Below, piece by piece: positions 151-13,019 of a DNA stretch of 64,000 nucleotides. How positions within the stretch are numbered: position 1 is the first letter of the stretch; every line of letters starts with the position of its first letter. The notes below the pieces were generated by a model that worked only from the letters and a program-made list of their open reading frames with translations, did not search any database and had not been told where the DNA came from. Where the stretch lies: NCBI GenBank assembly GCA_019746975.1, contig JAIERK010000050.1, forward strand, positions 1 through 64,000. The letters are read 5' to 3'. Made by a program: the position numbers and the translations under genes. Origin of the DNA: Candidatus Obscuribacterales bacterium. GTDB lineage: Bacteria; Cyanobacteriota; Vampirovibrionia; Obscuribacterales; Obscuribacteraceae.

Positions 151-921
151 TCAATTTGAGTAAATGTCAAACCAGCAATCAAGCCGAAATCTTGTTAATA
201 AGCGCATCGTATTAACGTTTAGTGCAGGGCAAGTGTTCCAGCCCTCGGTATGCCAATCACACATCATGTCTGTGTTGAAGCCTTGGTCTTGAAATAGGTG
301 AATTACTTCGATGCAGTGTAACAGCTGGTCGAGCACCCAACATATGTGGATGTTTGCGTCGACTGAACTGAACTGATTTTTGGAACTCAAGATCCAAATT
401 CCTTGCTGATGCGGCGTGTAAACTCTTCCTTGTCGACCTTCTCTCGGTGCGCCCTTGAAGTGCGATTTAGTAGGACTCATTCCAAAAGCCGTGGAGATCA
501 ATTTCGGGTCGAGATCTTCGTGAAAAATTCTGAAACTTGCCGACACTCTATATGGTGGCGGATTAATACGCAGACTTCGCCCCGAAGCTGTATAAAGTTC
601 ATCGTATTCGGTCATGAACTCCTCGTCGAATTTCGCAGCTCTTCCGCATACTTCTGCGCCTTTTCGAATGCTGATCGGATGTGTCCGATGTCGCTGGAAG
701 AACTCATTGTCATCTGGCTCGTAGTTATTTGGAAACGATTGTCCGAGCACCAAACCAATTGCTTTTATAAGATTCGACTTCCCAGCATTGTTTTCGCCAA
801 GCAGTACTAAAGGCCTATGTAAAGGTAGGCTTATCTGGACTGGATCTCCAATCGATCTATAGTTTTCAACTGTAATAGAAGTTAGACGAGCCATAAACGA
901 AAAATCCGGTAGGATCTGCAC
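151..921 (-). pseudogene. Truncated OLD-family-like AAA ATPase (N-terminal part)
   Basis: The N-terminus looks like the ATPase domain of OLD-family (overcoming lysogenization defect) nucleases: an ENYRSIG start motif, then a Walker A GENNAGKS at residues 42-49. Members of this family normally run to about 500-700 residues, with ABC-signature, Walker B and Toprim parts further on. None of these is present: the frame closes after 256 residues, and the last 70 residues do not look like the family. I read it as an N-terminal remnant, though a short stand-alone protein is possible. The frame opens at GTG 921; ATG 894 gives a more typical start (MARLTSITVENYRSIG). It lies 3' of tRNA-Val in a decayed zone. 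Confidence 0.55.
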
Positions 922-1338: not shown

Positions 1339-1410
1339 TGGGCGGTGAGAGACTCGAACTCCCAACCCCTTCGGTGTAAACGAAGTGCTCCACCATTGAG
1401 CTAACCGCCC
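1339..1410 (-). tRNA. tRNA-Val (anticodon UAC)
   Basis: A complete cloverleaf can be folded on the minus strand: acceptor stem GGGCGGT/ACCGCCC, D-stem GCTC/GAGC, anticodon stem CTTCG/CGAAG around the loop TTTACAC, and a T-arm with GTTCGAGTC. Anticodon TAC reads Val GUA codons. The discriminator base is A. The 3' CCA is not encoded (AAG follows), so it must be added by a nucleotidyltransferase. Confidence 0.93.
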
Positions 1411-2321: not shown

Positions 2322-4334
2322 ATGCCGGACAATCACTCTGATAATTCAACCGATCTGGTTGCTTCTGCTGCTTCGAAAGCCTACCCCGAGGACTTTCCCG
2401 ATATTGACTCGGGACGTTATGTGTTCGAGAAAATCGTAGGCGCAGGCGGATGCGGAACAGTCTATCGAGCTTACGACAACAAGCTGGACAAAACCGTCGC
2501 CATCAAGAAGCTGCATGACAGTGCCAATGAGATGCAAGCGATTCGATTTCAGAGAGAAGCGAGGTTGGTCGGGTTGCTCAACCATCTGAATGTACTCAGC
2601 GCACTAGATTACGGAATGACTTCGCGCAACGAGCCCTATCTGATTCTCGACTTTGTGAGTGGTGAAAGTCTAGCCGCCGTATTAAGGCGGACCGGACCTC
2701 TACCGATTGATAGCGCCCTAGACTTGCTGATTCAGCTTTGTTCTGGATTTGCACATGCCCATAGGAAGAATGTCATTCACCGCGACATCAAGCCAAGTAA
2801 TGTAATGCTGGTTCGCGACTCCATCGACCAGAAGACAGTGATTGCAAAGGTCGTCGATTTCGGTTTGGCAAAAAACATTGATGACGATCGTCAACATCTT
2901 ACGATGACTGGTCTGGGTTTAGGTACTCCGAAATACATGTCACCAGAGCAGGTGATCGGCATTGAGGCTGACAAAAGAAGCGACATCTATTCTTTCGGCT
3001 GCTTGATATTCGAGGTCCTATCCGGTCAAGTCCCTTTTTTGGGTGAAACCGCTATTGATACCGTAGAGATGCACCGTCAATTGCCACCACCAACGCTGGC
3101 AAGTATGGGAGTCAGATGCTCCGAGAACATGGAGAGAATTGTTGCCGTTTGTTTGAAGAAAGACCCGACGGAACGATATCAGTCATTCGAGACGTTAAAA
3201 CAACAACTGGAGGCGGAGCAGGAATCGAGGAAGTCCGAGAAGTCTAGCACCTCGACGACCATTGCAGACTACTCCTACCCGATCGATGAGACTACTTCTG
3301 TCAGACCAACACAAAATCCCAGGTCGTTAACAATTCCCTTTGCAATAGGCGGGATAATGATCGGTGCAATTTTTGTCGCCATGATTTGGGTTTGGTGGAA
3401 ACCTTCTCAACCATTGAAGAAACCAGCGGCTATAGACCCCCTGATAGTAAACCCTATCAGTCTGGAAAGTGGAAATTCTATATTCCCAGCCGGAACTGTG
3501 GGAATTTGCAGAGACGACGTCAGACAGACTGCAAGCTACGTTTGCGATGGCGTCACCGACAAGGAGCTTAAATCGTTCGTCAAAAAGTATGGGGAGATCG
3601 ATCAGGTGATCCTCATGCGGAATTCACTAACGCGCAAGGGTTTTGCGCTTCTCGATCGGGCGGGAGTCAAGGCGATAGTCATTGTTGAGCCTGTTATAAG
3701 TGATGAGCTATTTGCGCGACTATCTCCGATAAAGACATTGCGGGCGCTGTCATTGGAAGACCCTCAAAAAGTTGATGCGAATGCGTTGACCATGTTAGGA
3801 AGTGTTTCCACCCTTGAGCAACTAGAGTTAAGCCGTCTTAAGTTGGACGATTCAGCGATCACTTCTATTTGTGAGTTGATGGGATTGAAACATCTCAACT
3901 TGCATGGATGTAACGGGTTGACCAGAGATAGAATCGCAAAACTAGTCTCTCTTCCTAAGCTCACGACGCTAAAACTCGAGCAGACCGATATCACGGATGG
4001 AGCGCTCGAACCGGTCATTAACAGCAAGTTGGAATGCCTCGAAGTTTGCAATACCGGTATTACCGATAGTATCATCCGAAAAGTAGATATGATGCCTCGT
4101 TTGGGCATACTCGACGTTAGAAGCACTAAAGTTACTCCGCAGACCGTAGCCATACTGCAGTCGAAGAGAGATCCGAAAAAAGGGCGACTCTATGTTTTTT
4201 CAGGTCCGATTCCGAAAGCTGAGATGTCCGCAGAAGATTTGCCTTTCGGTGTTATATCCGATGGTCCCGACCTCAAAGGAAACGAGGAAGATCAACGAAA
4301 TAAACTCAACGTAATTCGAAACGAACCAAAGTAA
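2322..4334 (+). CDS. Membrane Ser/Thr protein kinase with C-terminal LRR domain (kinase 1)
   Basis: An Hanks-type kinase with all catalytic elements: glycine loop GAGGCGTVY, VAIK Lys62, HRDIKPSN with Asp155 and Lys157, DFG Asp179, and SPEQ in the activation segment. One membrane helix (about residues 337-359) separates the cytoplasmic kinase from an outer C-terminal part with about five leucine-rich repeats near residues 470-620. This is the reverse domain order of plant LRR receptor kinases. Ligand binding by the LRRs is inference. ATG 2322 (AGGG 4 bases upstream) was chosen; an in-frame TTG lies at 2304. First gene of a tight three-gene operon: the next start is 26 bp downstream. Confidence 0.92.
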   Translation: MPDNHSDNSTDLVASAASKAYPEDFPDIDSGRYVFEKIVGAGGCGTVYRAYDNKLDKTVAIKKLHDSANEMQAIRFQREARLVGLLNHLNVLSALDYGMTSRNEPYLILDFVSGESLAAVLRRTGPLPIDSALDLLIQLCSGFAHAHRKNVIHRDIKPSNVMLVRDSIDQKTVIAKVVDFGLAKNIDDDRQHLTMTGLGLGTPKYMSPEQVIGIEADKRSDIYSFGCLIFEVLSGQVPFLGETAIDTVEMHRQLPPPTLASMGVRCSENMERIVAVCLKKDPTERYQSFETLKQQLEAEQESRKSEKSSTSTTIADYSYPIDETTSVRPTQNPRSLTIPFAIGGIMIGAIFVAMIWVWWKPSQPLKKPAAIDPLIVNPISLESGNSIFPAGTVGICRDDVRQTASYVCDGVTDKELKSFVKKYGEIDQVILMRNSLTRKGFALLDRAGVKAIVIVEPVISDELFARLSPIKTLRALSLEDPQKVDANALTMLGSVSTLEQLELSRLKLDDSAITSICELMGLKHLNLHGCNGLTRDRIAKLVSLPKLTTLKLEQTDITDGALEPVINSKLECLEVCNTGITDSIIRKVDMMPRLGILDVRSTKVTPQTVAILQSKRDPKKGRLYVFSGPIPKAEMSAEDLPFGVISDGPDLKGNEEDQRNKLNVIRNEPK

Positions 4335-4360
4335 CTGGCAACAGGAATCCCTTAAGGAAA

Positions 4361-6175
4361 ATGACTGATTTGCGACAAGACGAGTTTCCTATAATCCAAT
4401 CCGACAGATACAAGATTATCTCGGTGCTTGGTTCTGGCGGCGCAGGCATCGTATACAAGGCCCTGGATACCCTTCTAGACAAAACAGTGGCGATCAAGAA
4501 GCTTCACAGAACTGCATCAAGAGCCGAATCTCTTCGCTTTCAACGCGAAGCCAAAATGGCGGCGACCCTAAACCATCCAAACGTTTCGACCATATTGGAT
4601 TTTGGGCTGACGGAAAAGCATGAACCATATATGGTATTGGATTACATAGACGGTCAGAGTCTTTCGACTTATTTATACAAGGTAGAATCGCTTCAGATAG
4701 GCGAAGCCCTGGGCATCTTCATTCAGATCGCCGAAGGTCTGGCACACGCGCATAGGAAGCGGGTCATTCACAGAGATGTTACTCCAAACAATGTAATGCT
4801 GGTGGAGAGTGGCGGAGTCAAATCTGCAAGAATCGTCGATTTTGGATTGGCAAAATCCACCAAAGAGGAGCAAGACCTCACAATGTCGGGTGTCGGAATC
4901 GGAACACCTCTATACATGTCTCCCGAGCAAATTCGCGGAAAGAATGTAGACCAGAGAAGCGACATCTACTCTTTCGGATGCTTGATGTACACCGCACTGA
5001 AAGGCGAACCTCCTTTCGAAAGCGACAACATTCTCAGTCTCATGGATATGCACTTGAAGACCGAAGCTCCTCGGATAAAGGTGATATCGCTCAATAAGGC
5101 ACAAGCTTCTCAAGTCGAAGCTCTGATCGATCGATGCTTGAAGAAAAAGCCTCCGGAGCGATACCAATCCGTAGACGAGATTCTGGTAGATTTGAATAGG
5201 GCGGCAAATGCTAAAGTAGAAGAAGATTTCAGTCCGCGTCCGATGTACAAAAAAGACAATCGCGGGATTCTCTTGATAGTAGTATTGTCCCTTGCCGGCG
5301 CCGGCTCAGCCTTCCTTCTGTACTTCTTTGTTGACTTCATAGTGGAATCTTCATCAGAGCAACACATAGTCGAAAAAGTCGTCGAGAAAGAAAAGGCTGA
5401 CGATGGGACATTAGACGAAGTAGCAGACAATACGGGTTCACCAGAGAACAAGGCAAGAAAAGGGGCATACAAATCGGCGAAGCGATTCGTAAGTTCTGAT
5501 TCGGACCTGGTGCAGTTCGCGAAGCTTCACCCAGAAGCAATCGAACTGGAGCTCGGCAGCGCCCATCATGTGACATCCGAGGGTTTAGCGGCGCTAGAAA
5601 AATTGCCTTTGGACAAACTGTCTTTAAAGCACTGTGCTTCACTTACAGCAGTTGGGTTTAAGCACATAGTAGGGCTGAAAAATCTACGGCACCTTAAGCT
5701 TATCAAGATCGGCAAAATGGAAACTGAAGGATTTGCAGAACTGAAAAAGTGCAAGTCGCTGGAAGAGTTGGCATTCATCGATTGCAATATTATCGCCGAC
5801 CAATTTGAAATTCTATCAACTCTACCTGGATTAACGAGATTCGAGTTAAAAGACTGTACCGGACTAAAGGAAGTTGATGTCGGGAAGTTGTCCAATTTTA
5901 AGAACCTGGACACACTGACTTTAAGCGATGTTGGGGACACGCGTATTTTTGGATTCGATAAACTAAAAGATCTACCAATAAAGACAATAGATTTGAGCGG
6001 CTCTCCCATTGCGCCGGTGGAACTAAAAAACATTGCCGCCATCAGGGCACTTCGAGAGCTCACCATTTGTTATCCGCCACGAGCGATCACTCCCTTGATG
6101 TTCGCGGAATTTAAGAAGTCGAGGCCGAACGTAATTCTCAAAAACAAGTTCGTCGACGATAGATTTTCTCTATAA
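4361..6175 (+). CDS. Membrane Ser/Thr protein kinase with C-terminal LRR domain (kinase 2)
   Basis: A paralogue of the preceding kinase with the same plan: kinase domain (residues 15-275), one membrane helix (about 303-325), a short coiled linker rich in Glu/Lys, and LRR-like repeats (about 390-600). The glycine loop, VAIK Lys46, HRD Asp139 and DFG Asp160 are intact. The catalytic loop reads HRDVTPNN, so the Lys that normally follows HRDx is Thr141; such variants occur in some bacterial kinases, and activity may be kept. SD AAGGAA sits directly upstream of ATG 4361. It follows kinase 1 by 26 bp and precedes the pseudokinase by 15 bp, so co-transcription is likely. Confidence 0.92.
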   Translation: MTDLRQDEFPIIQSDRYKIISVLGSGGAGIVYKALDTLLDKTVAIKKLHRTASRAESLRFQREAKMAATLNHPNVSTILDFGLTEKHEPYMVLDYIDGQSLSTYLYKVESLQIGEALGIFIQIAEGLAHAHRKRVIHRDVTPNNVMLVESGGVKSARIVDFGLAKSTKEEQDLTMSGVGIGTPLYMSPEQIRGKNVDQRSDIYSFGCLMYTALKGEPPFESDNILSLMDMHLKTEAPRIKVISLNKAQASQVEALIDRCLKKKPPERYQSVDEILVDLNRAANAKVEEDFSPRPMYKKDNRGILLIVVLSLAGAGSAFLLYFFVDFIVESSSEQHIVEKVVEKEKADDGTLDEVADNTGSPENKARKGAYKSAKRFVSSDSDLVQFAKLHPEAIELELGSAHHVTSEGLAALEKLPLDKLSLKHCASLTAVGFKHIVGLKNLRHLKLIKIGKMETEGFAELKKCKSLEELAFIDCNIIADQFEILSTLPGLTRFELKDCTGLKEVDVGKLSNFKNLDTLTLSDVGDTRIFGFDKLKDLPIKTIDLSGSPIAPVELKNIAAIRALRELTICYPPRAITPLMFAEFKKSRPNVILKNKFVDDRFSL

Positions 6176-6190
6176 TGTTCACTAGTTACC

Positions 6191-7246
6191 ATGAATAATT
6201 CAGCTGACGACTCCCCCACTATCAAACTCATCGCTACCTGCCCAAAGTGCGATGAGCCTTTGCCCGTCGCCGATGACTTGGACGAAAAAACAGACCTTGC
6301 GGCACTCTGTCCGAAGTGTTCTGGTAAGACGGCACAGGAACAGACCAATGAGAGGATTCTCGATCCTGACGTACCTGCGTTGTACGAAATCAAACATCGA
6401 ATCGAAGAGTGTCAGAATGGAAAAGCATTCCTGGTGCGTGACACCAGTCTCGATACCAATCTCATTATCAGATTCGTAACTACCGGAGTAGCGCGTTTAA
6501 CCGGTGGACTGCCGATTGAAAAGGTAGCGCAGCTTCTCGTGCAAGAAACACATCCGCATCTTTCTACTGTCTATGATTGGCGGACGGATACGAAAAGCAA
6601 GTATTTAATCGTGGATGCACCGACGGAAAAGACGTTGGAATCACTCATTAAGGATGAAGGGTTTCTAGACCTTCCCAGAGCAATCGAGATATTCATACAG
6701 GTCTGTGAGGGGCTCGAGGAACTCCATAAGATGGGAGTTATCCATGGTCATCTGCGTCCAAGGACAGTCGGTATCGTTGAACAAGACAACAAGATTGATA
6801 TCGTAAAGCTCACCAATTTTAGTATCACTAACACCCTGTCCAACAACATCGAACAGCCGTTGAAAATTTCGCGTAACTACACCTGCAACGACGCGTTCTA
6901 TATGAGTCCGGAGGAGCTGCGAGGCGAATGCCCGACGGTATCCGGCGATATCTACAACCTTGGCTGTGTATTTTTTCACTCGATAACTGGCAAGCCTGTG
7001 TATCGAGCAAGAACTGTCCAGGAAGTAAAAGATCAGCACCTCGATCCGGCTCCCGCAAAATTTCGACGACGCTACGAGATACCAAATAACGTAGAGTTGG
7101 TGATTCTTCGAATGCTCGAGTTCGATCCGCGTAAACGATATAAGTCGGTTAAATCAATCCGCAAGGACTTCGAACGTCTGCGCTCCGATAAAGAGCCTTT
7201 GCTCGAAGATCGTTGGAAAACGATGTTGTCCTACTTCGGTCAATGA
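6191..7246 (+). CDS. Zinc-ribbon pseudokinase
   Basis: The N-terminus holds a CPKC pair (residues 17-20 and 40-43), typical of a zinc ribbon. The rest is a recognisable kinase fold with degenerate active site. There is no glycine loop; the VAIK Lys position is Arg94; HRDxKPxN has become HGHLRPRT (185-192, the catalytic Asp replaced by His187); and DFG is NFS (209-211). Structural features survive: MSPEE, the GDIYNLGC helix F motif, and the C-terminal FDPRKRYKS block. No membrane helix is present, so it should be cytoplasmic. It probably cannot phosphorylate and may act as a scaffold or allosteric partner of the two kinases encoded just upstream (inference). It ends 52 bp before a convergent gene. 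Confidence 0.85.
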   Translation: MNNSADDSPTIKLIATCPKCDEPLPVADDLDEKTDLAALCPKCSGKTAQEQTNERILDPDVPALYEIKHRIEECQNGKAFLVRDTSLDTNLIIRFVTTGVARLTGGLPIEKVAQLLVQETHPHLSTVYDWRTDTKSKYLIVDAPTEKTLESLIKDEGFLDLPRAIEIFIQVCEGLEELHKMGVIHGHLRPRTVGIVEQDNKIDIVKLTNFSITNTLSNNIEQPLKISRNYTCNDAFYMSPEELRGECPTVSGDIYNLGCVFFHSITGKPVYRARTVQEVKDQHLDPAPAKFRRRYEIPNNVELVILRMLEFDPRKRYKSVKSIRKDFERLRSDKEPLLEDRWKTMLSYFGQ

Positions 7247-7298: not shown

Positions 7299-8135
7299 CT
7301 ACTTTCTGGAAGATAGCTCGAATCCGCCCAGACTTGTTGGCGGTGGCGGCATTTGCGGTGGTGGAATCTCCGTGAGCCTGCCTTTTGGGATATCAAAAAC
7401 GTTAGCATCAGGTGGTGCGATTTTGGTTTTCGGATAGGATTTGAACTTCCCGATACTAGCTGTCGAAGTCAGGCTGCTCGTAACGTCGGCAGATAGATCG
7501 TACGAAGCTTCGTGTCTGACTTCGGTCTTAGATTCTTCTGTGCTGTCCCTTTGGGTGTCGTTAGTTGTAAGTTTAGCGGATTTCTTCATTTCGCGTTTTG
7601 ATGATTCAGGAGCCGGAGGCTTATCATGTTGCTCCTCAACATTCCGATATGTCGATGGCGTACTGTAAGTTCGTCGTTCACCTTTCCTTCCATCACTGGT
7701 CTCTCCCGGCTTAGGTGCCACCATCCCCGCACGAAAGTTGTACCACGTCGAGGTATTGCCAGTGGTGCGGGACGAGTGAGTCTTTGTCACAGCATTCTGT
7801 CGACGATTCTCTTCGTATCTATCAGAATAGCTGCTCTGTTCTGCTCTTACGGAAGCTCGGCGGCGCTTTGTTCTCAGTGAAGTGCCGCCGGAATAACTGT
7901 TGCCTGTGGAGTAGGTCCTGCGTCTCTTCGAAGGAGCTTCTTGAACCGAAGCTGATTCGTGCGTCCTCAGATACGTGTCGACAGTAGAATACGCTCGACG
8001 TGGTCTCGGGGGCGGTGGCGTTATGTTGCCATATTCTTGGGCTCTCGATGGGATCGAATTCAATACAAGAAGCGCCAGGCTCGAAAGGACGATCAACCTG
8101 ACGGTGAGACACGATTTCAGAGACTGATTTTTCAT
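7299..8135 (-). CDS. Exported basic low-complexity protein with RRxYST repeats
   Basis: A signal peptide (LIVLSSLALLVLNSIPSRAQ) leads into a 250-residue, Ser/Thr/Arg/Lys-rich, probably disordered chain with proline runs near both ends. A short motif recurs three times: RRAYSTVDTY, RRTYSTGNSY and RRTYSTPSTY, i.e. RR(A/T)YST-x3-Y with variations. No catalytic domain is recognised. ATG 8135 overlaps the TGA of the upstream TPR gene by four bases (ATGA), which fixes the start and implies translational coupling. A surface, cell-wall-binding or substrate role is possible; the sequence does not decide. Confidence 0.75.
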   Translation of the reverse strand: MKNQSLKSCLTVRLIVLSSLALLVLNSIPSRAQEYGNITPPPPRPRRAYSTVDTYLRTHESASVQEAPSKRRRTYSTGNSYSGGTSLRTKRRRASVRAEQSSYSDRYEENRRQNAVTKTHSSRTTGNTSTWYNFRAGMVAPKPGETSDGRKGERRTYSTPSTYRNVEEQHDKPPAPESSKREMKKSAKLTTNDTQRDSTEESKTEVRHEASYDLSADVTSSLTSTASIGKFKSYPKTKIAPPDANVFDIPKGRLTEIPPPQMPPPPTSLGGFELSSRK

Positions 8136-11100
8136 TTGGTCTGCCCCTCAGCCCCCATCCACTCCAAAGATTTCCGAGCGAGCAAATACTCGGAATTGAG
8201 CATCAGTCCATCAGAAACAACCCAGCGCAACTTCTCTTTCGCTTCGCTCTTCTTGCCTGCGAAGTAGTCCTTCATGCCGCCGTAATAAAACGCATCGGTA
8301 AGTTCGCCGAGATTCTTCGACTCGTTCTTGAGTTGCTCGAAGTTGATCTCACCAAGTAGAAACCTGACCACAGGTGTCGGCCAAGGAAAATTTTCGGCAT
8401 TGTTCTTGCAATTGAGCAAGACTTCGCGCGCGAGTAATGTCTTGCCCTGGTAATTTAGTGCTACCCACTTAAGTAAAACCGCGGCATAACTATTCGCGTC
8501 TTCCCAACCTTTTGTTTTGACAATTTTGTCCGCTGACATCACAGCACCATTCCAGTCTTTCTGGAGAATCGAGGACAAAGCTTGCCTGGTCAGTGCCGGT
8601 GCGCTGTTACGATTAAGCGTCAGCGCTTTTCGAACATCTTGGTCGGCCTTATCCAGTTCGCCTTGCCTCAAGTAGCTGGCGGCGCGATCGGAGTAACCTT
8701 CATCGTCTTCCTTGAGCGTTAACGCAGTGTCGAAGTCTTTCTGAGCTTCAACGAACTTTCCCGCCAGTGAATAGGCGGTTCCTCGCAAGCGGAAGTTACC
8801 CTCATTGTAAGGGTTGGCTGTCAGAAGTTTGGAGCAGTCGCTAATTGCATTGTCGAGCTGTCTGATGGTCTCAAAGAAAAAAATCCTTGTCGGGTATGTT
8901 TCTTGACCAGGTTTGATCGTCACCGCTTTGTTGAGCAGGTTGAGCGCCTCATCATGGTTACCCAGGTCCAGCATCAAACTACCAAGACAAATAAAGCCAT
9001 GCCAATGGTTGGGATTGAGCGCAATCGATTTACGCAAGTCTAACTCCGCTTCTTTGACTCGCTTGCCTTCTATGTATGTAAGCGCCCTGTTACTGTAGTT
9101 GGAGGCATTCATCGGTTGTAACGTGACAAGCCTATTATTGTCGGCCAGGGCCGTTTCATAGTCACCGCGACTCAATAGCACAACACTTCTGACCGTGTAG
9201 GGCGTAGTGAGTGTGTTATCGATTTGAATCGCTTTTTCTGCGTCTGACAAAGCCTCGGGATAGTGATCGCTTCGATAACTGGCATAGGCCCGGTCCCCGT
9301 ACGCGTCACCACTCGTGGTACTGACACTAATGGCGACACTAAGCGGAGCAATCGCATCTTCATACAAACCAAGCTCTTTGTAGCACGTGCCAAGGACCTC
9401 ATACGAGCCAGCATTGCGAGGGTTGAGAGCTATGGCCTCATTCGCATAATACAGCGCGTCTTTAAAACGATCGAGCTTCGACAAGCCAAATGCAACCAGA
9501 GCATATCCCACGTGCGACTTGGGTTGATCCTTCATCTTCTGGCGTCCGCGCTGGATCAGCTCATTGCAGGCAAAATTCAAATTGTCCTGAGCAGAGGACA
9601 AATCCGGCTCGCGCTTCAGCGCGCTCTTGAAATCGTTGATTGCACCAATCGGCTCTTTCTGATACCAGCGCAATATTCCTCTTTCGTTGAACAGGTTAGC
9701 GTCACCGGGGCTGATATCAATCGCGTCGCCATAATACTTCCTAGCTTCATTGTAATAACTCGGTCCCTTTTCAAAAGCCAGAATCGCAAGGTTGCGCAGT
9801 GCTAGGCCGGACGAGTCTTTCATCGGTCCCTGCGCGGACAGATATTGATTGACCGCGGCAATCTCATTCTTTTGTCCCTTGTAAATCGTGGTACCAAGAG
9901 CGATTACAACTTCAGGGTTGCCTGGCGAGTCTTCCAGGATTCTTCGCAATCCACTCTCGGCTTCGGAATATTCTCCTGAATAGTACTTTGCTAGAGCCAA
10001 CCCAAATCTGACCTTACTGGTGTCTTTGCCGCTCTTGATCAATCGATTGTAATCATCGATCGCTTGCCGATACTGACCAAGCGCGATATGGGCGGCAGCT
10101 CGATCTAGATAGGCTTCGCAGAGATCCGACTTCTTGGTGATTGCAGCATCAAAATCTGCCAGTGCGAGTTGCCCGGATTGTTGGTCGTGTAATTGCAACC
10201 GAGCTAAGCCTCGCTTGTGATAAAGAGATGCGAGGTTCGGATTTTCGCTTATCGCTTTAGTGAGGTAGTCGATCGCTTCAGACCAGCTTTTATTGCTGAT
10301 GGCCACGTCAGCTTGCTGTGAGAGTTGCTTCCAGTCGAGAGTGCTGGATTTGGATAACCAGTTAACGCCGGACGTCGCGATCATCCATCCAGTAATTGTG
10401 GTGCCAACCAATACAACAACGACCGCAACTGCAACAAACGCGATCAATTTAACCGGCGGAGCCTTTGGTTCTTGATCTCTAGTTGTTGTTTCGGCTTGGT
10501 TGTCCGTCTTGGTCCCGTCAGCCCGACTACCAGCAATTTGCTTGTCGATGTAAGAGGACAATTTACGCACCTTCCTTGGTGCTTCGCTATCCTCACTGGA
10601 AGAGGCGGAAGCCGACTGCTGCTCCTCTATCGGTAAGCTAACAGCAAAGACTGGACCAGACAAAAGCCGCGCTGGTGGCATTGACGAAGGAGTCGGAGCA
10701 ACGTTGATCCCGTGCACCGTCGCCGGAAAGTCATCCCACAGAGGAATGTCGTTACTCGACTCTGGTGGCAGCGAATGCTCGGGTAGAGGTTGCACTGGCG
10801 ATAGCGCTCGCATCAGAGGTTGCTCCGGGCGAGTGTTCAAAGTTTGCTCGGGAGGAGGATCTTGGTGTTCAATCTCTCCGTGTTGCAAGGGCTTGTCTTG
10901 AGGAGGACGTCCGAGGGGCAAGCCCACAGTCGCACTCGAATGTTCCTCTTCCTTCTCCGGCTCCTTCTCCCGGCGCGGGTTCAAAGACTCAGGATCCGGT
11001 CTCTTATGACCAACAATCGGCGTTTTCTTCAATCCAGGCGGGGTCCACTTAGGAGACGAATTTGCCTCCATCGCCGTGTGCAAACGCTCCTCAGCCTCGT

Positions 11101-11548
11101 CCGAGACAGGGGATTCTTCTGGTACTGTTTCCGCCGCCGGTACGGAAGCTTGTGAGACTTCGACGGTCGGTGCGAACAGTGGCTCATCCTCGTTGTTCTG
11201 AAGCGCCCTATCGGGGATCGAGTAGTTGATGGAGTCTTCTTGTGAGGAGTCTGAAGTAAAAGGTGTATTTCCCCCGTCCGATTCATCGACGCGGGAGCTG
11301 ATGTCCTGAGGAGACATTGCGTCCCGCTTTATCGGATTGATTTCTTCTCGAATTGACGCAGTGATCTTCCGCAATACTTCGAGACTCGGTTGAGACTTGA
11401 ATGAGGACGAATCCCCTTGCGGAATCGTCGACGGCGTCGTCCTGAGGTGCACAGCCAGAGGTTTTTTCTTTCCACCATGACTACCAAGCAACCAGGGGTG
11501 GTGCGGCGCATGCCAACCGCCAGGAGGATTCGTCGTTGCATCAGCCAC
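8132..11548 (-). CDS. Large membrane-anchored TPR-repeat protein
   Basis: A protein of 1138 residues in three parts: a proline/glutamate-rich disordered N-terminus (1-360), one membrane helix (about 367-390), then a long array of tetratricopeptide repeats (about 405-1050), recognisable by repeated A-LY-KRGLARLQL and AL-LNPNN-type helices. TPR arrays bind other proteins, so this is likely a scaffold outside or at the inner membrane. The annotated start is GTG 11548 without a clear SD. The frame is open upstream to about 11648 with coding-like sequence but no ATG/GTG/TTG, so a rare start codon further up cannot be excluded. It is coupled by an ATGA overlap to the downstream exported RRxYST protein and is convergent with the kinase operon. 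Confidence 0.88.
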   Translation of the reverse strand: MADATTNPPGGWHAPHHPWLLGSHGGKKKPLAVHLRTTPSTIPQGDSSSFKSQPSLEVLRKITASIREEINPIKRDAMSPQDISSRVDESDGGNTPFTSDSSQEDSINYSIPDRALQNNEDEPLFAPTVEVSQASVPAAETVPEESPVSDEAEERLHTAMEANSSPKWTPPGLKKTPIVGHKRPDPESLNPRREKEPEKEEEHSSATVGLPLGRPPQDKPLQHGEIEHQDPPPEQTLNTRPEQPLMRALSPVQPLPEHSLPPESSNDIPLWDDFPATVHGINVAPTPSSMPPARLLSGPVFAVSLPIEEQQSASASSSEDSEAPRKVRKLSSYIDKQIAGSRADGTKTDNQAETTTRDQEPKAPPVKLIAFVAVAVVVVLVGTTITGWMIATSGVNWLSKSSTLDWKQLSQQADVAISNKSWSEAIDYLTKAISENPNLASLYHKRGLARLQLHDQQSGQLALADFDAAITKKSDLCEAYLDRAAAHIALGQYRQAIDDYNRLIKSGKDTSKVRFGLALAKYYSGEYSEAESGLRRILEDSPGNPEVVIALGTTIYKGQKNEIAAVNQYLSAQGPMKDSSGLALRNLAILAFEKGPSYYNEARKYYGDAIDISPGDANLFNERGILRWYQKEPIGAINDFKSALKREPDLSSAQDNLNFACNELIQRGRQKMKDQPKSHVGYALVAFGLSKLDRFKDALYYANEAIALNPRNAGSYEVLGTCYKELGLYEDAIAPLSVAISVSTTSGDAYGDRAYASYRSDHYPEALSDAEKAIQIDNTLTTPYTVRSVVLLSRGDYETALADNNRLVTLQPMNASNYSNRALTYIEGKRVKEAELDLRKSIALNPNHWHGFICLGSLMLDLGNHDEALNLLNKAVTIKPGQETYPTRIFFFETIRQLDNAISDCSKLLTANPYNEGNFRLRGTAYSLAGKFVEAQKDFDTALTLKEDDEGYSDRAASYLRQGELDKADQDVRKALTLNRNSAPALTRQALSSILQKDWNGAVMSADKIVKTKGWEDANSYAAVLLKWVALNYQGKTLLAREVLLNCKNNAENFPWPTPVVRFLLGEINFEQLKNESKNLGELTDAFYYGGMKDYFAGKKSEAKEKLRWVVSDGLMLNSEYLLARKSLEWMGAEGQTK

Positions 11549-12041
11549 GGCAGCTCGAGCCGATGGACCAGGGTTGCGCCAAACTTCAGAAGCTGGTGCG
11601 GTTGCTATCCGGATCTTTTCCAGAGTTTGTATGAGTTGTCTTAAAAGTCATTTGAAACGAAGAGTCCAGCTTCAACTTTTCTTCATTGTCGAAATTGTCC
11701 TTATCCTGTTTCATTCGTGACCGCTTATCTCTTTAATAGTGGCGAGCCGGGTGAACTGGGATACCTTTCCGGTTCCTAGAATTCTAATATAGTTACAGCT
11801 TGCCCATCATCCATCCGTCAAATAACACTCAGTCGATTCACAATTCACAGTTTCGCTGCAGGATGTTTCCACCTGCCGTCATATTCTCAAAAAAATCAGA
11901 CAGCCCAAATGAAATCCCGAGCCGTTCGGTCTAAAATGCTACATGCATCGGCTTCCTTGTTAGAATGTCGACCAAGAATTCATCGGATCAAGCTGTGTAA
12001 GCTCAATTTCAGCGGTACTCAGCATCCTTCGGAGTAAATTG
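11549..12041. other. Divergent intergenic region before the Fur-family gene
   Basis: About 490 bases separate the large TPR gene (minus) from the Fur-family gene (plus). The first 100 bases are open in the TPR gene's frame. I see no further gene, RNA or strong hairpin; an extended -10 near 11958 is listed separately. Confidence 0.5.
11958..11966 (+). promoter_or_regulatory. Extended -10 promoter element for the Fur-family gene
   Basis: The sequence TGtTAGAAT fits an extended -10 element (TGnTATAAT). It lies about 75 bp upstream of the Fur-family start. No good -35 hexamer is visible at the usual distance, as is common for extended -10 promoters. Confidence 0.4.
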
Positions 12042-12428
12042 ATGAGGCTCACCAAAGGCTGCAAGAAGGTTCTCGAGGTACTCGAGCACGCACACGATCT
12101 TTCAAGCGCCCAGGACATCCACGGACGCATGCGCGGAGAGGACGACAAGGCGCCTGGGCTGACGACCGTTTATCGCTCACTCGAGTCATTGGTCAGCATG
12201 GGTCTTGTCCAGGCGGTGGACCTAGGCGATGGCGAGCGTCGATACGAATTGGTCAAGCCAGGTGAGCATCATCACCATCTGGTGTGCGAAAGCTGCCGGT
12301 CCAGTGTCCACCTCGACCAGTGTTTGATTGAGGAACTTGAAGAAGGAATCCGTCACAAATACGGATTTCAGATTAAAGGTCACATTCTCGAAATCTTCGG
12401 AACCTGCAAAGGGTGCCTCACGAAGTAG
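12042..12428 (+). CDS. Fur-family metal-responsive repressor
   Basis: A 128-residue regulator of the Fur/Zur/PerR family: an N-terminal winged helix (LSSAQDIHGRM...TTVYRSLESL is the recognition region), then the metal-binding HHHHLVCESC motif and a second Cys pair CKGC at the C-terminus that would hold structural zinc. Which metal it senses cannot be read from the sequence; pairing with a MerC-like transporter and the Cys-rich site make Zur-like zinc sensing a reasonable guess. ATG 12042 has SD GGAG seven bases upstream; TTG 12039 is in frame but worse placed. A perfect inverted repeat just before the next gene (12508-12528) may be its operator. Confidence 0.9.
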   Translation: MRLTKGCKKVLEVLEHAHDLSSAQDIHGRMRGEDDKAPGLTTVYRSLESLVSMGLVQAVDLGDGERRYELVKPGEHHHHLVCESCRSSVHLDQCLIEELEEGIRHKYGFQIKGHILEIFGTCKGCLTK

Positions 12429-12536: not shown

Positions 12537-13019
12537 ATGATGACTATCAACAACAATGCCGCCCATGACAGTTGCTGTTCTGAGGACCACCAATCAGAAG
12601 CTCAGACGCAAGCAGGCGCTCATCAAGACGAAGTCATCAATGTAGCGATTACGTCGATGGACAATCTCGGAATTTTTGCCTCTGCTCTCTGCCTGGTCCA
12701 CTGCCTGGCAATGCCGTTCGTTATCGCCTTTCTTCCGGTGCTGGGTCTGCAATTTCTGGAGACCCACGAGTCGCACCTGATCATCGCTTCCTTTATCTGG
12801 CTTTTCGCCCTGTTCGCAATTGTTCCTGGTTATGTGAAGCACAAGAGAAAAGAGATTTTGATCGGAATGATTCTCGGTCTAGGACTCGTCACATTTGCCG
12901 TAGCAGCCGGGCATCAGTTCTTCGGTGAAAAGGGCGAGCTCATATGCTTGACGATTGGCAACCTCACTTTAGTTGCCGTCCACTGGAAGAATCGTGGACT
13001 CTGCAAGTGCGACCACTGA
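12537..13019 (+). CDS. MerC-domain membrane protein, probable metal transporter
   Basis: The signature ALCLVHCLAMPF matches the Cys-x-x-His-Cys part of the MerC family, which moves mercuric ions and, in many genomes, probably zinc or other metals. Four membrane helices are visible (about residues 40-65, 75-92, 103-120, 128-147). The ends carry extra metal ligands: DSCCSEDH near the N-terminus with several His, and CKCDH at the very C-terminus. No merR, merA or merT is nearby, so a mercury operon is unlikely. With a Fur-family gene 110 bp upstream and an inverted repeat before the start, regulated uptake of zinc or a similar metal is the best inference. Start ATG 12537 or the adjacent ATG 12540. 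Confidence 0.85.
   Translation: MMTINNNAAHDSCCSEDHQSEAQTQAGAHQDEVINVAITSMDNLGIFASALCLVHCLAMPFVIAFLPVLGLQFLETHESHLIIASFIWLFALFAIVPGYVKHKRKEILIGMILGLGLVTFAVAAGHQFFGEKGELICLTIGNLTLVAVHWKNRGLCKCDH

Follow-up and report, generated by a model that had tools for sequence, protein, structure and literature searches.

In plants, receptors that combine a leucine-rich repeat (LRR) ectodomain with a cytoplasmic kinase are well known, as are pseudokinase partners. Bacterial pseudokinases are described as little studied in a 2025 review, in which seven families are distinguished (PMC12599244). Among these, the MviN pseudokinase domain (family ActPs3) of Mycobacterium tuberculosis is stated there to be phosphorylated by the active receptor kinase PknB and to recruit the partner FhaA (PMC12599244). 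The terms 'zinc' and 'leucine-rich' are absent from the text of that review (PMC12599244), and among open-licence papers none was found that describes the gene composition considered here in Melainabacteria or Obscuribacter. A strictly conserved soluble pseudokinase beside its likely receptor kinase would be a compact system in which the control of an active kinase by an inactive one could be tested. Coming from a group with very large kinomes, the non-photosynthetic relatives of cyanobacteria, it would also be a bacterial parallel to plant LRR receptor signalling.

The window, i.e. the whole stretch of 64,000 nucleotides analysed in this study, comes from a 7.5 Mb genome of the Obscuribacterales with at least 150 kinase domains. 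Two membrane Ser/Thr kinases, K1 and K2, and a zinc-ribbon pseudokinase follow each other on the same strand with gaps of 26 and 15 bp (Table 1); the open reading frames were re-derived and agree in strand and spacing with the preliminary description. K1 has an alternative start at TTG 2304. From their spacing, the three genes probably form a single operon. Convergently to it, 7299-11548 (-) encodes a proline-rich protein that looks secreted and a TPR membrane protein of 1138 aa, and similar proline-rich and TPR genes occupy the same place in two of the related genomes described below (G001 and G002). On the other side, just upstream of the locus, are a tRNA-Val(TAC) at 1339-1410 (-) and an ORF at 151-921 (-) with a Walker-A-like GENNAGKS motif, an ATPase that is perhaps truncated; this region is a possible integration hotspot.

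Table 1. Features of the receptor kinase-pseudokinase locus and its syntenic neighbours (window coordinates; residues refer to the respective protein).
Feature	Position	Strand	Residues and remarks
K1, membrane Ser/Thr kinase	2322..4334	+	kinase domain about 33-295, TM about 345-370
K1 LRR ectodomain		+	about 400-640
K2, membrane Ser/Thr kinase	4361..6175	+	kinase domain 17-282, TM near 307-330
K2 LRR solenoid		+	372-596
Zinc-ribbon pseudokinase, soluble, without TM	6191..7246	+	351 aa; degenerate kinase domain 63-330
Four-cysteine ribbon of pseudokinase	6239..6319	+	17-43
Catalytic-loop position of pseudokinase, HGHLRPRT for HRDxKPxN	6743..6766	+	185-192
Pseudo-activation segment, NNIEQPLKISRNYTCNDAFYMSPEEL	6842..6919	+	218-243
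C-terminal helix of pseudokinase, amphipathic-looking			341-350
fur gene	12039..12428	+	order-wide syntenic neighbour of the pseudokinase locus
MerC-family gene	12537..13019	+	found with fur in many Obscuribacterales genomes

The Pfam Pkinase model matches a full kinase domain in both K1 (1e-48) and K2 (6e-52), and in a 162-domain profile alignment of the genome's kinases the active site of each is intact (beta-3 Lys, HRD Asp, catalytic-loop Asn, and DFG Asp). Pfam LRR models match the C-terminal parts of both proteins below their cut-offs; phmmer matched both ectodomains to solved LRR proteins, and the AlphaFold2 model of K2 shows a repeated strand-helix solenoid with pLDDT mostly 73-92. With an intact kinase domain, a single TM, and an LRR ectodomain, K1 and K2 are the LRR receptor kinases that had been described from the letters of the sequence. 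In kinase domains, fold, and single-TM receptor layout they resemble PknB/Stk1; however, the ectodomain is LRR and not PASTA. They score 270 and 285 bits with the NCBIfam PknB-PASTA model (NF033483), against a cut-off of 450, and no PASTA domains were found. PADLOC and NCBIfam gave generic kinase matches and nothing more specific, and the high scores with the PADLOC defence kinase profile PD-T4-6 arose solely from the generic kinase domain. With plant LRR receptor-like kinases the likeness is one of analogy only, since the bacterial lineage is independent and the order of domains is reversed, with the kinase at the N-terminus and the LRRs at the C-terminus.

The third protein has a kinase fold by both profile and structure. 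It matches Pkinase with an E-value of 2.4e-25 (89.9 bits, the cut-off being 31.7), and PknB/Stk1 is its best match in sequence (PknB, phmmer against the PDB, 4e-25) and in fold (PknB, Foldseek, 5e-16, with PknA also found). The AlphaFold2 model used for Foldseek, made with five sequences, is weak, with a mean pLDDT of 60, and served as a check of the fold only. Pfam finds the kinase and weak zinc-finger matches but no other domain. PknB/Stk1 differs from this protein, which is soluble and lacks the catalytic residues: R94 is at the position of the beta-3 Lys, H185-G186-H187 at that of HRD, and N209-F210-S211 at that of DFG. The loss of the active site had thus been read correctly from R94, H187, and NFS, and it extends to the catalytic-loop Asn, replaced by T192, and to the Gly-rich loop, which is absent.

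By profile search, orthologues of the pseudokinase are present in five of 53 Obscuribacterales genomes, each with at least 593 bits, the next match having 198 bits. These genomes are designated G000 (this genome), G001, G002, G003, and G009, the last from another genus. A contig scan recovered the same four relatives (Candidatus Obscuribacter MP9P1, Obscuribacterales ACE_CYA3, a Centralia MAG, and RI_106); the Centralia MAG is labelled 'Proteobacteria' and groups in the same family here. The orthologues form one clade (support 0.999), in which that of G003 (contig L117) is the most divergent. None of the five retains the HRD Asp or the DFG Asp, the HRD position being occupied by HGH, HGY, HGF, or HGA, and the beta-3 Lys is Arg in four; G003 keeps the Lys as well as the Gly of DFG. 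Catalytic activity of the third protein, which would have contradicted the preliminary description, is therefore not predicted, as far as sequence can tell. Among the four closest orthologues, codon positions 1 and 2 differ by 0.24-0.31 and position 3 by 0.60-0.70, and selection therefore keeps the protein; a simple dN/dS was unusable owing to saturated dS.

In kinases, the activation segment is normally a substrate or partner surface. In the five orthologues, no other long stretch is as conserved as the pseudo-activation segment, in which 17 of 26 residues are invariant, and the short catalytic-loop stretch, rewritten as HGxxRPR, is similar, with five invariant residues of eight (H185, G186, R189, P190, and R191). 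Conservation is far lower in the N-lobe (17 of 81) and in the ribbon, where the 5 of 33 invariant residues are its four Cys (17, 20, 40, and 43) and one Pro. Since both Asp are lost while the four Cys and the pseudo-activation segment are kept in all five, the third gene is, on this evidence, a maintained pseudokinase. The pattern is as would be expected of a binding protein, in which the partner face of the C-lobe is kept and catalysis is given up, and an active site that is lost in relatives that retain the shape suggests a docking or switching partner rather than an enzyme.

On the features compared, the protein falls outside the definitions of five of the seven reviewed families, namely ActPs2, ActPs3, GLW, CP1, and DLHK; the other two, ActPs1 and DYD, are both described as actinobacterial (PMC12599244). 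The actinobacterial ActPs2 members show Lys-to-Arg and HRN, have mostly lost the DFG by deletion, and carry long insertions and a C-terminal TM; the Arg for the beta-3 Lys alone is shared, whereas the present protein has HGx and NFS-type motifs and neither a TM nor large insertions (PMC12599244). MviN and its relatives in ActPs3 are alike in the loss of all catalytic motifs; however, an activation-loop deletion and mostly a C-terminal TM are expected there, whereas this pseudokinase is a separate soluble protein of another phylum with a zinc ribbon and a conserved activation segment (PMC12599244). GLW is defined by GLW for HRD and a C-terminal TM, against HGH/HGY/HGF/HGA in the orthologues; CP1 by fusion to a COG3899 ATPase, against a protein of 351 aa with only kinase and weak zinc-finger matches; and DLHK by a retained HRD Asp, which is lost here. 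The orthologues thus appear to be a lineage-restricted pseudokinase family with a probable receptor linkage.

L87 (Leu or Met) and D129 are kept in all five orthologues and are the equivalents of L33 and D76 of PknB, at the back-to-back dimer interface. A role of these positions in the PknB/MviN interface is given for MviN (PMC12599244). Equivalents of L87 and D129 occur in 79 and 113, respectively, of the 162 kinase domains of the genome. Being so common in the kinome, they do not single out a receptor-pseudokinase pair and speak for feasibility only.

The N-terminal zinc ribbon had been regarded as an added feature. Its four Cys are indeed present, but it is no special addition, since about 27 other kinases of the genome have a CxxC...Cx(1-2)C ribbon (about 28 with the pseudokinase, an approximate pattern count with duplicates removed by eye). 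Such ribbons are common among kinases of the order as well. In the zinc-ribbon kinases of the order (e.g. those on contigs L140, L009, and L060) the motif likewise directly precedes the kinase domain, although these are mostly catalytically intact. Homology between the ribbons is weakly supported (best non-member E 0.001, small set).

Four of the five genomes have, 15-65 bp before the pseudokinase, an LRR kinase or, where the contig ends, a fragment coding for LRRs. In G002 it is a single LRR kinase 65 bp upstream, itself behind a response-regulator gene; in G009 there is at least one, 15 bp upstream, with the contig ending 301 bp further up; and in G001 an LRR-coding fragment at the contig end stops 18 bp upstream. 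In G003 no kinase was found in the 5.9 kb upstream that were examined, and the pseudokinase stands alone, 124 bp upstream of fur and on the same strand, with merC following. The result for the expected linkage of the third gene to kinases is thus mixed, with G003 as the exception, and from G003 it follows that the pseudokinase can work without an adjacent receptor. Either the receptor arrived after the divergence of G003, or G003 has lost it. Two receptors occur in this genome only, the relatives having one (at least one in G009) or none, and a receptor pair as the conserved unit was therefore ruled out. fur is present in 50 of the 53 genomes of the order, and in many of the genomes checked its neighbour is merC while this pseudokinase is missing; therefore, the pseudokinase probably joined an already existing fur/merC neighbourhood.

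In a 35-row IQ-TREE phylogeny, K1 and K2 share one clade (support 100/99) with the locus receptors of G002 and G009. A first tree (0.968) had allowed K1 and K2 to be seen as locus-specific orthologues; this was abandoned when the wider tree placed in the same clade three receptors from other loci in G001 and G002, far from any pseudokinase. In whole-protein searches, K1 finds the locus receptor of G009 best, and K2 scores 309 bits with an other-locus receptor of G002 and 301 with its locus receptor. The locus, by this phylogeny, draws on one receptor subfamily that is not confined to it. About 47 of the 152 kinases long enough to judge are LRR receptor kinases (TM and three or more LRR motifs), and about 23 distinct same-strand tandem kinase pairs occur in the genome (one duplicate removed), both being approximate counts from simple patterns. 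With at least 150 kinases and so many tandem pairs, adjacency alone is weak evidence; what sets the locus apart is that catalysis is lost completely, that this loss is conserved, and that one receptor subfamily is linked to it repeatedly.

The reading preferred here, at a probability of about 0.5, is that the pseudokinase is a soluble dead relative of PknB kept for binding, and that it most likely works with the adjacent LRR receptor kinase or kinases. It is favoured by the maintenance of the dead protein with its conserved pseudo-activation segment, by the LRR kinase 15-65 bp upstream in G002 and G009 and the LRR fragment in G001, and by the common clade of the complete receptors. The protein would then serve an LRR receptor kinase as a cytoplasmic partner without catalysis, and would be independent of it in some lineages. 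The preliminary description had made it the scaffold or controller of a receptor-kinase pair; a non-catalytic partner is plausible, but the pair is particular to this genome and the subfamily also occurs away from pseudokinases, so that control of a pair as such is unsupported. In the mechanism that we infer, which comprises a signal, a physical interaction, a direction of control, a role for the ribbon, and a single transcript, an extracytoplasmic signal on the LRR domain would bring the receptor kinase domains together. The pseudokinase would dock on the active kinase domain through its pseudo-activation segment, the back-to-back N-lobe interface, or both, and would then modulate the kinase or serve as its phosphorylated scaffold, and the zinc ribbon may contact a downstream partner. 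A further-reaching proposal, that a new bacterial family marked by the four-Cys ribbon, HGxxRPR, and RNYTC-D-FY-SPEE provides LRR receptor kinases with a dedicated co-receptor or scaffold in the cytoplasm, as an independently evolved counterpart of the plant LRR-kinase/pseudokinase modules, is tentative and rather doubtful.

It is unlikely that no functional link exists and that the pseudokinase happens to lie next to LRR kinases that are expanding in a genome rich in kinases. The frequency of kinases, LRR kinases, ribbons, and tandem pairs and the missing receptor in G003 would fit such a chance arrangement, but in two genera the gene immediately upstream, at a distance of 15-65 bp, is from the same receptor subfamily. 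Alternatively, the pseudokinase, as a soluble zinc-ribbon protein, may be tied to fur/merC and metal homeostasis, the receptor kinases being later insertions at a busy locus. The order-wide occurrence of fur, often with merC, the solitary G003 gene close to fur, and the proximity of the pseudokinase to the same pair in G000, G001, and G002 agree with this. It is nevertheless improbable, because the pair does not need the pseudokinase in most genomes of the order, two convergent genes separate the pseudokinase from fur in lineages other than G003, and the ribbon is a common kinase accessory in the genome.

Little probability is likewise given to the reading that the protein binds nucleotide or is still a transferase, if a weak or unusual one; this has been suggested for some Lys-to-Arg pseudokinases. 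For ActPs2 and DLHK, ATP binding by pockets rich in Arg is proposed (PMC12599244), and R94 in four orthologues, the Lys of G003, and the invariant R189 and R191 would suit such a pocket; however, of the HRD Asp, the catalytic-loop Asn, the DFG Asp, and the Gly-rich loop, none is left. That the gene is a kinase paralogue decaying towards loss is disfavoured as extremely improbable: the degraded active site, with beta-3 Lys and DFG Gly surviving in G003, could be taken for decay, but five intact ORFs, the invariant Cys and activation segment, and the third-position-biased divergence contradict it.

Clear loss of the HRD Asp elsewhere was seen only in L133, L135, and L201 within the 162-domain set, and none of these has lost all motifs; the set consists of the top-scoring matches, so that weaker, more degenerate kinases are under-sampled, and the window's own pseudokinase is absent from the best 150 matches of the genome's Pkinase search. 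L201:1094-3190 (G000 C204) is a second ribbon pseudokinase, with HSL for HRD and DFA for DFG, a TM, and a C-terminal region resembling TPRs. L135:6731-8563 (HQQ) and L133:8663-10969 (HCN) are next to or near other kinase genes. The three were rejected as members of the same system since only part of their motifs is lost, and no LRR receptor kinase directly adjoining them was seen in the stretches examined. In addition, diverged membrane kinases in head-to-tail arrangement form about ten pairs in this genome, on L199, L200, L202, and L204-L210 (e.g. L204:2546-5627). In most of them one gene has HRDLTPDN...IDFGA and its neighbour HRDFTPDN...VDFNV or the like, the Gly of DFG being missing; this recurring DFG/DFN pairing may represent a heterodimer system.
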